Part shown: positions 27,335 through 43,245 of the stretch, in pieces
How the letters are laid out: each line of letters begins with the position of its first letter
Position numbering within the stretch: position 1 is the stretch's first letter
Assembly (NCBI GenBank): GCA_010909725.1
Contig: JAACMV010000020.1
Coordinates: 930,001-994,000, forward strand
Direction: 5' to 3'
From: Picochlorum sp. 'celeri'
Lineage: Eukaryota > Chlorophyta > Trebouxiophyceae
Length of the DNA stretch: 64,000 nucleotides
The notes under the pieces: model-generated
Told to the model about the DNA's origin: nothing
The model's input: only the letters and a program-made list of their open reading frames with translations
Database searches by the model: none
Position numbers and translations under genes: made by a program

Positions 27335-29321
27335 ATGTCAAAATTGCCGGATTTGTCACGGACATCCACGACCGGCCAGTCGTCGCAAGGCATTGACGCC
27401 CCCACTCGCAAGGTGGTTGGGTTCCATGTCGAAGGTGCAACGCCATCTCCTCAGAATGATGAGCTCATGAAACAAAATATCAAAAGTGGCTCATTGTCGC
27501 CGGTGATCATCCCTCCCTCATTTCAGGTGCGTACGATGTGTGCAGTCACCTACAGCGTGGACACGTACTGCGCGTTGTGATTCATCTTCCATACCATTGA
27601 TTGGATTGAAAAATGTACAGGGACAAAGGACTCCTGAGACGTCGCCCCGTCAGCTTCCGGGGAGCAAGCGGACGAGCATAGACGAGCCTGGACGAGCGGC
27701 CGGGTCGAGGTATTCTCCCACGCACCGGCCACCGAGTGGAAGGAGCAGTTTAGACAATCCAGCGGGCACATCCTCATTTACACGTGGAAAGGATCAGGAG
27801 CCGTTGCCGTTGACTCCCATTGAGTCGAACAGCATTTTGGGGACTGTAGAGCAGCATGATGATGTGTCGGTCACAGTGTTCAAGGAGGAGGACAAGCCTC
27901 TCCAGCAACAGTCGTTGACGAGGAAAGATTCTCTGGCGACACCCTCGACGGCAGACGAAGACAAAGCGGTGAAAGAAGAAGGTAAGACAGAAAAAAAGAC
28001 GAAGGAGCAAGGGCATAGGGATATTCCACCTAAAAAGCAGATGACCAAAGCAGAGAGGAGGGCTCTTCAGGAGGCACAGAGGGCTGCAAAGGCTGCTGCA
28101 AAGGCACAGAACCAGCAGCAACCAGATGGAAAGAAACGACATGTGGATGAAGAACATATTAGTAATAAGAAGGACGTTCAAAAGGATGTCGTGACGAGAA
28201 AGGAGGGTTCCAGCAGGCATCCTGCCAGTGTGCCCCGTCCTGCAGCATTTTTTGATCATTTACCAAAACAACAGTCTATTTCGATGGAAGAACTGGCATC
28301 TTCTGCGTTAGAAAAGTTCATTCCAGTCTCCTGTGTGGCTCTGGGTAAAAAAATGCTGGATGGATCCCTCAGAGGGACAAACAAGAGGAGCCTGGCCCTC
28401 CTGCAGATGATTGATGGAGTGATTTCGTCATTCGAGTTGTCCGAGGGGCAATCTTTCACCAGAGAATTCACTGTGGCAGTGAAGAATATGGTATCATTTT
28501 TAGTTCGATGCCGGCCGCTATCCCCAGCTGTGGGGAACGTGGTCAAGTCGATCAAGGCAGAACTTGGGCATGTAGCAGCGGACACAGAGTTGTCAAATGA
28601 GGAGGCAAAGAATGAACTGAGACGATTTGTGTCGACGTTTGCCCAAGACAAGATAACAATTGCTCAAAAAGCTCTGTCTGGAACGGCGGCAAGTAAAATA
28701 AGCGATGGTGACATAATTCTGACGTATGCGTGCTCATCAACTGTTGAGCAGACCCTGAAAGCTGCTGTGGCAGCGGGTAAAGAGTTTAGCGTGGTCATAG
28801 CAGATGCAGGGCCCTTGTATGAGGGCAAGGAATTACTGACGGAATTATTGCGCGTTGGTATTCCATGCGAGTATTTACTTCTAAACAGCTTGGAAACTGG
28901 TATGAATCAGGCTAACAAAGTGATGCTAGGGGCAGCAGCGGTCATGTCAAATGGTGCAGTCTTGTCAAGAGTCGGGACGGCAGCAGTGGCCATGTCAGCA
29001 TCGCTGGCCAACGTCCCCGTTATCGTCTGTTCGGAAACGTACAAATTCCATGAGAGAGTCCAGTTAGACAGCATCACCAACAATGAATTGGCAAATCCTG
29101 CAGCACTGTTGCAGAAGGCTGGTCCTCTTGCCGAGTCGCTCCAGCAGGAAGACGGACAGTCAAACCTGTCGCTGCTCAACTTGGTGTATGATACAACTCC
29201 CGCGGAATTTGTCACGGTGATAATCACTGAGGTCGGTGCACTGCCACCAACAAGTGTGCCAGTTGTCCTAAGGGAGTACAGATCTGAGAGTGAACTCATG
29301 ATGCAAGCCTCAGCTGCCTGA
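27335..29321 (+). CDS. EIF2B4: eIF2B delta subunit, regulatory subunit of the eIF2 guanine-nucleotide exchange factor
   Basis: Exon 1 (27335-27526) and exon 2 (27621-29321) are joined in phase 0 (intron GTGCGT...TGTACAG, 94 nt), giving 630 residues. The N-terminal third is disordered and ends in the Lys/Ala-rich TKAERRALQEAQRAAKAAAK block characteristic of eIF2B delta. The C-terminal alpha/beta regulatory domain contains 'ADAGPLYEGKELLTELLRVGIPCEYLLLNS' and 'VMLGAAAVMSNGAVLSRVGTAAVAM', the conserved Rossmann-like part of the eIF2B alpha/beta/delta family, and NNELANPAAL near the end. It recycles eIF2-GDP in cytosolic translation initiation and senses eIF2 phosphorylation. Confidence 0.93.
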
Positions 29322-29369
29322 TGGAAAAATCTACTAAAATCATTGTAATCCGTTATTCATATCACTGTC

Positions 29370-29383
29370 AAAAACAGTAAAAA
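29370..29383 (-). terminator. RNA polymerase III T-run terminator of the permuted tRNA gene
   Basis: Read on the minus strand, two TTTTT runs (29383-29379 and 29374-29370) lie 33 nt and more past the end of the tRNA 5' half. Pol III stops at runs of four or more T, so a transcript covering both halves would end here. Confidence 0.6.
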
Positions 29384-29416
29384 TTTTGCTCGCAGAGGAT
29401 GTCATGCCCTCCTAGA

Positions 29417-29520
29417 TACAAGGCTGGTGCTCTAAACCAACTGAGCTATAGAAGCGTATCCCTACGTGAGGGGCATCATGTGTTTGCTTCTACCGTGGTT
29501 CGAACACGGGACCCCCAGCT
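29417..29520 (-). tRNA. circularly permuted tRNA-Thr(UGU) gene
   Basis: On the minus strand the 3' half comes first (29520 to 29485: A38, stem GCTGG, variable GGGTC, T-arm CCGTG-TTCGAAC-CACGG, acceptor TAGAAGC, discriminator A). A 29-nt spacer follows (29484-29456), then the 5' half (29455 to 29417: acceptor GCTTCTA, TA, D-arm GCTC-10 nt-GAGC, A, stem CCAGC, loop CTTGTA). Rejoined between positions 37 and 38 they form a complete 75-nt cloverleaf. All stems are perfectly paired, including 7 bp of acceptor and 5 bp of anticodon stem, and the loop is CTTGTAA with anticodon TGT. The join is at the canonical tRNA intron site. The flanks next to the join can partly pair, as expected for a bulge-helix-bulge cleaved by tRNA splicing endonuclease. 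Known permuted genes mature through a circular intermediate. Confidence 0.93.
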
Positions 29521-29787
29521 GTCTGGCTGGATGCGATGATCCAATCACAAGAGAGAATTTTTTACATTTTATAAATACGTGGATACTGGCGCCGGCCTTC
29601 TCCAGTCCTTTTGGCATCCACCCGCGCTCGCCATCACATCAGTTTCTGTTTCATCCGATGCCTATGATTATTTATCACTGCTCAAAGCCTTGTTCGTGAC
29701 GTTTCAGTCGATTCATGGGCATTTCATTCCTGCTAACAGGAATTTCATTCCTGAGGTACCATCTTCCTGCATTGACAGCGTCTCTGT

Positions 29788-30777
29788 TCAATATATAATC
29801 AAGGGTTTTTCATGAGGTATTCCAAGATAATTTAGTCCGAAACGATGGACGTGTCTCAATTTGTCGATAAAAGCAACAAGCATCTCCTCGACACGTGCAT
29901 CATCTAATTGAATGTCTGGTATTCTCGGCATTTTGATTGGTCTACCGATCACGATCGTAAGTTGATTTCTGTATGGCACAGGGGTTCCATATTGGCCCCA
30001 GGCCAGCATCGGGGCGAAGCCAAGACTCCTGGACAGCCTCGTAAACATGTGTCTGGCAAATGAACGTGTCGGGGGATCATACAGTGGCCTCCAGTATTTG
30101 TAGAGATCACTCTGACCTATCCCAAAACAAGGAACGATAGATGCTCCTTTCTGCATGGCCAAGTGGATAAAACCTCTCCTTCGTTTCAAATACACACATT
30201 CCACACATTGCTCCATGAGCAAACATTCATGAACTCCTCCTGGGCATAAAGCCACGGAGCTGCCTCCGTCCAGCAGACACTCCATGGACGAACGCGACAC
30301 TGGCCTACAACCCAGCCACCAAAACAAATGTCGCAACAGCGGGATGTAGAAAATCCCATCTGAGACAAGAATGGCCGCGCCGTCCAAGTTCTTGGGAATT
30401 TTCATTCCTGCTGGCTTCTCAACGTGACAAAATGTGCACATCCCTTGAGGCAGCACGCCATGAGGCTCATACGCAATCATGTAAGGCCCATCATCACCGA
30501 AACTCCCGCCATCTTCACATAAAACCTTCACTGGCAGGAACTCCTCAAATGCCTTTATGCTGTAGGCCATGAACCAAGAAATCACGAGAGGACACGGTAC
30601 ATCCAAAGGTATGAGTAGGGATACAATAATTATAAAAAGGTTTGGAAACCCCAAGAGTGGGAAAAAAATCGCCAGGACCAATGTCGCCAGCACCCAAACG
30701 ACCACCAGGATCAGCAGTGTGAACCATATTGAGACGGCAGCAATCACCTTGATTTCCCGCAACAAGTCTTGATTCAT
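29788..30777 (-). CDS. DGAT2: DGAT2-type acyl-CoA:acylglycerol acyltransferase
   Basis: The ATG at 30777 gives 329 residues. Two hydrophobic segments near the N-terminus (about 10-40 and 42-75) form the ER-membrane hairpin typical of DGAT2. The catalytic EPHG motif is at 104-107 (YEPHG), followed by the family blocks 'GGSSVALCPGGVHE', 'RRGFIHLAMQKGASIVPCFGIGQSDLYKYW' and GRPI. The length matches DGAT2 (about 310-390). It likely makes triacylglycerol in the ER, though monoacylglycerol or wax acceptors cannot be excluded. Intronless. The permuted tRNA lies downstream of its stop on the same strand. Confidence 0.9.
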   Translation of the reverse strand: MNQDLLREIKVIAAVSIWFTLLILVVVWVLATLVLAIFFPLLGFPNLFIIIVSLLIPLDVPCPLVISWFMAYSIKAFEEFLPVKVLCEDGGSFGDDGPYMIAYEPHGVLPQGMCTFCHVEKPAGMKIPKNLDGAAILVSDGIFYIPLLRHLFWWLGCRPVSRSSMECLLDGGSSVALCPGGVHECLLMEQCVECVYLKRRRGFIHLAMQKGASIVPCFGIGQSDLYKYWRPLYDPPTRSFARHMFTRLSRSLGFAPMLAWGQYGTPVPYRNQLTIVIGRPIKMPRIPDIQLDDARVEEMLVAFIDKLRHVHRFGLNYLGIPHEKPLIIY

Positions 30778-30945
30778 ATCATACCATCGACATAGCACAG
30801 GGGCCTTTCAGAAGAATATCGAAAGTTTTTCATCCTTGAGGATTCTCAAATCACAAGTGCTATTCAGCATTAAATAATCGTGGTGGGAGCAGCACCGCGG
30901 CATTATTATCAAATAAACTATAGTATTTAATTTAATTATAGAAAT

Positions 30946-40584: not shown

Positions 40585-43245
40585 TTATTCTATTTGTGAC
40601 GTTGATATTGTAGGGGCGTGAGCCTCTTCCAACTTCAATTTCTTTTCGACGAGGTCATACGCCTCGATGACATCCCCTTCTGCCCAGTCCTTGAAGCTCT
40701 CCATGGCAACTCCGCATTCAGTCCCTGAGGCAACTTCTTTCACATCGTCCTTCACTCGACGGAGCGACGACAGATTTCCTTCGTGCACAGTTTTCTTTCC
40801 TCTTTTCACTACGATGAATGCATTCTTTGTAAGCAATCCGTCAGTGACGAGACATCCTGCAGCTTTCCTGCTACCAGATCCAAATACAGCCTTCACCTCT
40901 GCCTCGCCTATCTTCACCTTTTCTTCTACTGATTTCAAGCGCCCTTCCATGGCAGCCCTAACATCATCAACCAAGTCATAGATTACGGAATATGTCCGAA
41001 GAGTAACATTGTTCTTTTTCGCCTCAGATGTCACAGAATCTGAGGGTTGCACATTGAAACCAAGCACCATGCCGCCAGAGGCAACTGCCAAATCAATATC
41101 TGAGGCTGTTATATCTCCTGGAGCGGAGAGCAAATATCTCAACATAACTGTGTCTTGTGGAAGGGCAGCCAATGCAGCCTTGACTGCTTCGCACGATCCT
41201 GATGCATCAGCCTTCAGGATGATGTTCATGCGTTGGAGAACTTGTTCTTCGTTCTCGTCATCCATACTAGCAAGAGACGATAAAGTTACCATATTACCTC
41301 CCCCGGCCATTTCGGACAGCCTCTCCAGCCTTCTTGCGTCCTCGACAGACTCTGCTGCCTGTCGAGCCCTGGTCTCGCTGTCGAATACTTCAAACACGTC
41401 ACCTGCCTGGGGAACAGAATTGAGACCAAGTACCTGGGCAGCCATGGAGGGACCAATTTCTTCTACATCCCCCGCAGACGTTTTCATCGATCTCACCTTA
41501 CCATAGGAACCACCTGCAGCAATGCAGTCCCCTACCTTCAAGTGTCCATTCTGCACTAACAGCGTTGTCATAGGTCCCGACTTGCGATCCAGGCATGCCT
41601 CAAGAACCGTTCCTGTGGCTGACCGCTCGGGATTTGCAACCAGTTCCTCAAGTTCAGCTACGAGCAGGACTGTTTCAAGAAGATCATCCACCCCCATTCC
41701 TTTCTTTGCAGATATGTTCACCATGGGAGTTTTTCCTCCCCATTCCTCTGGAATCAGTTCTACTTCTGTGAGTTCTTGTTTCACTTTCTCAGGGTTGGCT
41801 CCTTCCTTGTCTATCTTGTTTATGGCCACAACAATTGGGACACCTGCAGCTTTGGCGTGACTGATTGCCTCCAGTGTCTGTGGACGGACGCCATCATCAG
41901 CTGCAACAATGATGATGGCAATATCTGTCACCCTCGCACCTCGGGCCCTCATCGCACTAAATGCCTGTACGAGAAAAAGACGATTGAAATTAGGAATGGC
42001 GAAAATAGAGACTCGTGTGTTGACCAAATTTGAAGGCATGCCTCAGAATTAAAAAGCTCGTTTTGTTGTTTCAACAAGACTAATTCAGCGTTGGATTTTG
42101 GTTTCGCATCATTGGCAAGCACTATTTACTGACCAAGTTCACCTTGTGAAAAAACGTACCTCATGCCCTGGTGTGTCCAAAAACGTGACAGCCTTCCTCT
42201 CATCATTGTAGTCCACTTTGCATGTGTAGGCTCCGATCGATTGAGTGATCCCTCCAGCCTCATCCGCTGCGACCTTGGCTTTTCTCACAAAGTCCAAAAG
42301 TGAAGTTTTCCCGTGATCAACATGACCCATTACAGTTACAACGGGCGGCCTTGTCTGCAGGTTGTCGATGTCATCCTCACTAATAAAATCTCTAGACTTT
42401 TTGGCACTGTCTTCCACCTTCTCATCAATATCGAGCACGTCCACCCCGTACTCCTCGCCTACAAGTTTCACAGTATCAGGATCTAATGTAGAATTCACTT
42501 GTACCGCGAGCCCTTTCATGAAGAGCTTCTTGACAATATCCACTGGTGGTACGGCAAGCATCTCTGCCAGTTCTGGCACGGACATGCCATCTGGGCCCAC
42601 CTCGAATATTTCTTCTCGCACTGGAGCAGAGGCCAAGGCCTCCTGCTTTCGCTCTGCCTTTCTGTTTTGTCGGGCTTTACGCCTATTCGCCAGGTTTATC
42701 TTTTGCTGCGCCCTTCTGTTGCCAGGCTGTCCTCTACCTCCTCGACTGGGACCGTCATCATATCCGCCCTTTCCTTTGTTCCCGCCCTTGGCATTATTCC
42801 CATGTGGCCCTCTTCGACTATTTCTTCCACCCTGACTGTTCCCCTCGTTATTCATTGGAACGTCAGGGAAACTGGCTGGCGACGCGGCCTTTCCACCTCC
42901 TGGGCTCTGTCGCTCCCTATTTCCATGATCACCCTTTTTCGTACCACCTCCACGCCGACCGCCTGGGGCAGGCGCCCTAGTCATCCGTGGGGGAGGACGC
43001 TTTGGTCTCTCTAATAGCTCTGGCTCATCGCCTTCTGCTGACGCAGAAGTGGCAAAGATACCGCGAGTGCCCGCCATACTATCCCTCACAAATACTGGGG
43101 CGATACGTGCCTTATTCGCCCACATTTCACCCAAAAGATGATATTTCCTTGTCAAAATGTCTCGTCTTACACCAGAACCTCGAACTTGTCCCGCAGCATG
43201 TCCTGGCTGCACTCCGCCACGTGGTCTGGACAGTCTGCCGCTCAT
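40585..43245 (-). CDS. infB: plastid translation initiation factor IF-2
   Basis: Exons 42160-43245 and 40585-41964 (195-nt intron, GTACGT...GTACAG, phase 0), about 821 residues. A long basic Gly/Arg/Pro-rich N-terminus (about 1-200) acts as transit peptide plus linker. An IF2_N segment contains [20 protein letters not shown]. The G domain has GHVDHGKT (G1), DTPGHE (G3, split by the intron just after the Glu), NKID (G4) and SAK (G5). Domains II, III and IV follow to the C-terminus. The '[11 protein letters not shown]' effector region is of the cyanobacterial/plastid kind, which favours plastid over mitochondrion. It delivers initiator fMet-tRNA to the plastid 30S subunit. Confidence 0.92.

Follow-up and report, generated by a model that had tools for sequence, protein, structure and literature searches.

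A probable circularly permuted nuclear tRNA-Thr(UGU) gene in the green alga Picochlorum sp. 'celeri', with further permuted tRNA loci in the same genome

The window, i.e., the whole 64,000-nucleotide stretch of contig JAACMV010000020.1 that was analysed, contains an intergenic tRNA gene, flanked by genes of the IF-2B and diacylglycerol acyltransferase families (Table 1). This tRNA gene is read from the minus strand, and its 3' half precedes its 5' half. A protein search with the acyltransferase neighbour returned close metagenome relatives (98% and 86%), and a SNORD36 snoRNA at 42038-42117 of the minus strand (49.6 bits) was the sole Rfam match at gathering score in the window. A comparison of 29 nt of the tRNA 3' half with viral contigs gave no match. 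When the two halves were rejoined at 37/38, one complete 75-nt tRNA-Thr(UGU) was obtained. The acceptor (7/7), T (5/5) and anticodon (5/5) stems were all Watson-Crick, and the D stem was paired 4/4, for a total of 21 pairs out of 21. By eye, U8, G15-C48, G18G19, U33, T54T55C56, A58 and A73 were found in the rejoined sequence, and the T loop is TTCGA. An earlier note, made from the letters of this DNA, had described the same arrangement: the coordinates, the minus strand, the reversed order of the halves and the 29-nt spacer were right as given, its stem counts were confirmed by the pair check, and the G15-C48 pair, the discriminator A and the join at 37/38 were all seen in the rejoined sequence. 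The spacer contains no T run, and its length falls inside the range of 1-74 bp covered by the 34 genes tabulated in a 2014 review (PMC3978253).

Table 1. Features at the permuted tRNA-Thr(UGU) locus, in window coordinates.
Feature	Coordinates	Strand	Basis or remark
IF-2B family gene (PF01008)	27540..29321	+	ends 95 bp before the tRNA 5' half, convergent with the tRNA
Two TTTTT runs, likely Pol III terminator	29383-29379 and 29374-29370	-	sequence
Trailer start, 3' side of the junction	29412..29416	-	pairing analysis; pairs with leader 3/4
5' half of tRNA-Thr(UGU), positions 1-37, 39 nt	29417..29455	-	sequence, covariance model
Anticodon TGT	29420-29418	-	within the 5' half
Spacer between acceptor ends, 29 nt	29456..29484	-	sequence
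3' half of tRNA-Thr(UGU), positions 38-73, 36 nt	29485..29520	-	sequence, covariance model; holds the anticodon stem second strand, variable loop, T arm, acceptor stem second strand and discriminator A
Leader end, relaxed bulge-helix-bulge at 37/38	29521..29530	-	pairing analysis
Leader bulge bases, two	29521-29522	-	
Leader central-helix bases, four	29523-29526	-	three can pair with anticodon-loop bases 32, 33 and 35
Leader outer-helix bases, four	29527-29530	-	three can pair with the trailer
AAAATTC, match to the AATTC-type upstream motif	29555..29561	-	sequence
TATA-like TATTTATAAAA, candidate	29567..29577	-	sequence; starts 57 nt upstream of the 3' half
Diacylglycerol acyltransferase family gene (PF03982)	29788..30798	-	other neighbour

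ARAGORN, applied to the doubled stretch and to the joined halves, returned tRNA-Thr(tgt) in both cases and nothing for the native order. The gene in native order was also missed by Rfam at gathering score. A covariance model of the permuted layout, R2, was built from seven normal tRNAs of the same genome rearranged in silico; the Thr gene was left out, as were three misaligned tRNAs whose variable loop has four bases (both Glu and Asp). R2 matched the Thr locus with 64.5 bits and an E-value of 6.1e-19, R2 E-values being rough by the tool's own warning, and this was the only match at E 10 or better in the 64-kb window. When the Thr gene was placed among eight training rows, its score was 74.9 bits. 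Random sequence from a first-order Markov model with the dinucleotide make-up of the window was scanned for the permuted layout, with spacers of up to 130 allowed, and in 90.6 Mb (one strand) this gave no match with all 21 pairs and two with at least 20. Because there were zero matches in 90.6 Mb, the chance expectation of a 21-pair layout was bounded by the rule of three at about 0.004 per window on both strands, and at about two such layouts over the whole diploid genome.

The genome searched was a phased diploid assembly of 27,412,692 bases in 30 contigs; the published Picochlorum celeri assembly is described as phased diploid, of 27.43 Mbp, with two sets of 15 scaffolds (PMC7225527). The second haplotype of the window was found on contig C5 with 97% identity, where the order of the halves was unchanged and 75 of 75 tRNA bases were identical. 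Seven differences separated the haplotypes within 29330-29650, none of them in tRNA bases and two in the spacer, at its terminal bases (29484 and 29456), one beside each mature end. For the Thr gene alone, the substitution-free halves (0 of 7 nearby differences) count as weak evidence. An assembly artefact or a chance tRNA-like sequence would draw some support from the polishing of the assembly with long reads only (PMC7225527) and from one-base insertions, possible sequencing errors, in an allele of a permuted Arg(TCG) gene described below. Such an explanation is very unlikely, given the identical order on both phased haplotypes, the lack of random matches of this quality in 90.6 Mb and the leave-one-out E-value of 6.1e-19.

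Next, the rest of the genome was searched for a normal copy of tRNA-Thr(UGU), as the earlier note had advised, and none was found by family, DNA or anticodon pattern search, a result that an intron-split copy could escape. The genome search with RF00005 gave 34 matches over both haplotypes, with 63 of 866 candidates scored, and these correspond to 18 distinct loci; together with two intron-containing genes (L107 and L127), at least 20 distinct normal tRNA loci were counted. None of the 18 RF00005 loci was Thr, either by ARAGORN or by our own reading, and some ARAGORN isotypes for intron-containing tRNA genes look wrong. The two intron-containing genes were missed by the RF00005 search, as was the doubtful L131, while all intronless tRNA genes found later by ARAGORN at pattern matches were already among the RF00005 loci, a Cys(aca) call at a permuted Gly gene aside. 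L131 itself (C14:382100-382500) has a T arm and an acceptor and is a possible disrupted tRNA, for which the anticodon loop proposed by ARAGORN is implausible. At the DNA level, the joined Thr sequence matched only the halves of the two alleles. A pattern for the Thr(UGU) 5' half (AGAGC, six bases, YTTGTA) gave 18 matches vs 17 for the reversed control; ten of the 16 non-Thr places were checked with ARAGORN and the pair scan and held no tRNA, and the other six share the matched letters with checked ones.

These searches bear on the possibility that the locus is a dead pseudogene, in which a duplication or an inversion swapped the halves while its function is served by a normal tRNA-Thr(UGU) at another locus. 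The scan of 63 of 866 candidates, which missed two intron-containing tRNAs, leaves some room for it, as an intron-split Thr(UGU) could have escaped. Neither broken stems nor relaxed constraint was found at the Thr gene, where 21 of 21 stem pairs are intact and 0 of 75 tRNA bases differ between haplotypes that are 97% identical around the locus. With the failure of the family, DNA and anticodon pattern searches to reveal a normal copy, and with the possible pairing at the splicing register and the ten other loci of the same layout that are described below, a pseudogene appears improbable.

Genome pattern searches and a pair scan around the matches yielded ten further permuted loci, all with a 37/38 junction: Tyr(GTA), Arg(TCT), two of Arg(TCG), Gly(GCC), Leu(AAG), Leu(CAG), Leu(TAA), Ser(GCT) and Ser(AGA). 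At the level of sequence, the permuted arrangement in the Picochlorum genome is not isolated to the Thr gene. The places examined per pattern were 22/22, 29/29, 12/12, 5/5, 9/30 and 20/88, the last set chosen for a matching outer T-stem pair in one haplotype. The counts of permuted and normal genes are lower bounds, as only the 37/38 junction was sought, and both are incomplete because the searches largely passed over T arms lacking G52 G53 and T loops of the initiator type. At all 11 loci the 3' half came before the 5' half, and spacer length ranged from 13 to 128 nt (130 on one allele). R2 gave 51 matches at E 1 or better over 78 loci, and many of these, with scores of up to 29.5 bits, covered just one half of a normal tRNA, in some cases of a tRNA used for training. 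Tyr scored 64.6, Arg(TCT) 52.2, Gly 44.4, Leu(TAA) 42.2, Leu(AAG) 40.1, Leu(CAG) 39.9 and Ser(GCT) 35.5 bits, so that seven of the ten further loci are each supported by the model and the other three rest on the pair scan. Ser(AGA) (L118) had no R2 match at E 1 or better, and it rests on 21 stem pairs and leader pairing. The two Arg(UCG) loci gave 30.2 bits over about 94 nt (23.1 bits over 87 nt on one allele), and they rest on the pair scan because the R2 match cannot reach the 5' half behind a 128-nt spacer. The 3' half of one Arg(UCG) allele carries a one-base insertion.

Each haplotype carries two copies of the permuted Arg(UCG) gene, which lies in a duplicated segment whose copies are nearly identical (L064, L065, L073 and L074, on contigs C8 and C17). 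The 128-nt spacer of this gene has a predicted fold of -45 kcal/mol with several hairpins, and it is longer than the 74-bp maximum in the 2014 review (PMC3978253). The 42-nt 3' halves of Leu(AAG) and Leu(CAG) (L104 and L106) are identical and part of the spacer is common to both, as if a permuted gene had been duplicated and its anticodon then changed. L088 and L098, called tRNA-Cys(aca) by ARAGORN, are read here as permuted Gly(GCC), with 44 bits in R2. Scan matches at L089 (17 pairs), L094 (18) and L122 (18) were put down to chance. Contig-end stretches (L111, L112, L108, L069 and others) carry tRNA-like pieces, with no complete tRNA in those examined; a Leu/Ser-type box A stretch, TGGCCGAGCGGTTAAGAC, is found among these pieces and a box B stretch, GGTCCGGGGTTCGAGCCCC, elsewhere. 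Moreover, the normal tRNA-Asn and tRNA-Phe genes (L005 and L022) are directly preceded by AGAGGTCCCGGGTTCAAA, which resembles a cut-off 3' tRNA half.

The haplotype comparison was then pooled over the eight permuted loci for which both alleles were available, leaving out Leu(TAA), Ser(GCT) and Ser(AGA), with one allele each. Over 602 positions, the halves carried no substitution and a single one-base indel, whereas 11 substitutions fell within the 480 positions of the spacers (Fisher p 1.2e-4) and 15 within the 801 of the 50-nt flanks (p 2.7e-4). The eight loci are not fully independent, because the Arg(TCG) locus is present in two nearly identical copies.

A bulge-helix-bulge has three-base bulges and is cut between the second and the third base, and in 37/38 introns loop base 32 pairs with the third base before the 3' cut. 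At a 37/38 junction, this sets loop bases 32-35 opposite leader bases -3 to -6. In the Thr gene, three of the four central-helix positions can pair (C32-G, U33-A and G35-C; U34 cannot). Over ten distinct genes, with Arg(TCG) counted once, 32 of 40 central pairs are possible at the endonuclease register vs 11-17 of 40 at nine other offsets, and the base-32 pair is possible in nine of ten genes vs two to five of ten elsewhere. Swapping leaders among genes reached 32 pairs in 16 of 50,000 shuffles. These ten genes are not fully independent, because Leu(AAG) and Leu(CAG) are related. Ser(GCT) had one of four central pairs at the endonuclease register, and all four would pair if it were shifted by one base, as read by eye. 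The earlier note had claimed that the outer flanks are partly complementary, as a bulge-helix-bulge needs; this stood for the Thr gene itself (three of four outer pairs) and did not carry over to the ten genes, where the outer helix h' showed no enrichment (14 of 40 pairs vs 10-17 of 40 at other offsets), and the motif is therefore termed relaxed. The free fold of the Thr precursor was no better than that of shuffled sequences (z 0.42 and -0.13); its minimum-energy structure is not the cloverleaf, and when the acceptor, T and anticodon stems are imposed the energy rises by 3 kcal/mol.

The T runs that had been claimed downstream were found as the two TTTTT runs of Table 1, the first of which begins 34 nt past the Thr 5' half, and at all 11 permuted loci a run of at least four T starts no more than 36 nt after the 5' half. 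Upstream, the TATA-like TATTTATAAAA differs between the haplotypes in its last base only (29567), and AAAATTC is broken on the second haplotype by the difference at 29557. AATTC, often as GGAAATTC, was present at -60 to -15 in eight of ten permuted genes (one allele each) and in ten of 20 normal tRNA genes, against a background of 5.1% of such stretches in the window; the binomial figures of 1.8e-9 (permuted) and 1.3e-8 (normal) are overstated, because the motif was picked after looking. The GGAAATTC-like motif that recurs about 20-60 nt upstream of permuted and normal tRNA genes is a candidate Pol III element.

Separated halves could in principle be made apart and joined by trans-splicing, in a Nanoarchaeum-like manner, with their closeness being incidental. 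The halves of the Thr gene are only 29 nt apart with no T run between them, the leader and trailer carry the pairing at the splice register, and the order with the 3' half first is kept at 11 loci whose spacers measure 13-128 nt (130 on one allele); trans-splicing is thus regarded as highly improbable. Collectively, the leave-one-out score, the haplotype identity, the leader pairing, the T runs and the further permuted loci support the interpretation given in the earlier note, and we consider, with a probability of about 0.9, that positions 29417-29520 of the minus strand are a genuine circularly permuted nuclear tRNA-Thr(UGU) gene of type II (junction 37/38).

For such a gene, Pol III would transcribe the leader, 3' half, spacer, 5' half and trailer, stopping at the T runs. 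The precursor would then fold so that the anticodon stem closes beside the relaxed bulge-helix-bulge of leader and anticodon-loop bases, the tRNA-splicing endonuclease (Sen2/Sen34) would cut after 37 and before 38, and a ligase, probably RtcB, would join 37 to 38 to give a circle, from which the spacer would be excised by RNase P and tRNase Z before CCA is added. The mature tRNA would read ACA, and probably ACG too. A Sen34-like gene and an RtcB gene were both found on C7/C24. Sen2-like frames occur at seven places of the diploid assembly (C9, C10, C12, C16, C21, C25 and C26), of which the C10 copy (L115) was compared; three of these frames lie 1,564 bases from the contig start, apparently inside a repeated segment. 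Intron-containing tRNA genes with an intron at 37/38 share the cut sites and the endonuclease with permuted genes and, unlike them, have their exons in normal order and give a linear product and no circle.

Permuted tRNA genes are a rare but known arrangement, to which the Thr(UGU) gene adds a member. The precedent claimed for Cyanidioschyzon and prasinophytes is listed in the 2014 review by Soma (PMC3978253), and Auxenochlorella UTEX 250-A, for which permuted tRNA genes are briefly reported (PMC12636532), adds a trebouxiophyte. Among the genes described in the review, a close likeness is to the type II genes of Cyanidioschyzon merolae such as Thr(CGT) and Thr(AGT), which also have a 37/38 junction, the 3' half first and a predicted motif of the bulge-helix-bulge type, with spacers of 31 and 24 bp vs 29 here (PMC3978253). 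In that organism, most permuted genes have a TATA-like sequence no more than 50 bp upstream and a downstream T run, whereas the TATA-like sequence lies 47-57 nt upstream here; it is a red alga, its permuted Thr genes have other anticodons than the UGU found here, and its junctions also include 20/21, 50/51 and 59/60, whereas our search covered 37/38 only (PMC3978253).

Among green algae, all but one of the permuted genes of Ostreococcus and Micromonas are type II (Maruyama 2010, via PMC3978253). Leu(TAA), Ser(AGA), Ser(GCT) and Arg(TCT), given in the review as permuted in some green algae, are permuted here and in at least one Ostreococcus or Micromonas species. Those species have three to six permuted genes each vs 11 candidate loci here, and their table in the review holds no Thr, Tyr or Gly, all three of which are permuted in Picochlorum; the review gives permuted Tyr(GTA) in an archaeon only (PMC3978253). 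Permuted Ser genes are described from a second chlorarachniophyte nucleomorph (PMC4494063). In Auxenochlorella, of the same class Trebouxiophyceae, the tRNAscan-SE set was incomplete and permuted genes were then detected (PMC12636532). For Picochlorum itself, we found no report of permuted tRNA genes among the matches listed from the open-licence literature, and the SENEW3 paper, in which tRNAs were called by tRNAscan-SE, contains no word beginning with 'permuted'.

A broader reading, which we put forward as tentative, is that a large part of the nuclear tRNA set is permuted (11 loci from an incomplete search, hence no fewer than the 11 genes of Cyanidioschyzon), that permuted genes may be stable units, able to undergo duplication and a change of anticodon in the permuted state, that the upstream GGAAATTC-like element, common to normal tRNA genes, may drive them, their internal A and B boxes being inverted, and that the hairpin-rich 128-nt Arg(UCG) spacer exceeds that of any of the 34 reviewed genes.

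Picochlorum is a production alga, and its annotated tRNA set is probably incomplete, because ARAGORN and Rfam miss the Thr gene in native order. In a fast-growing, transformable and diploid alga with about 11 permuted loci, deletion or allele replacement could probe why such genes persist. These loci could also show how Pol III starts with inverted internal promoters, and what spacer length the circle route tolerates.
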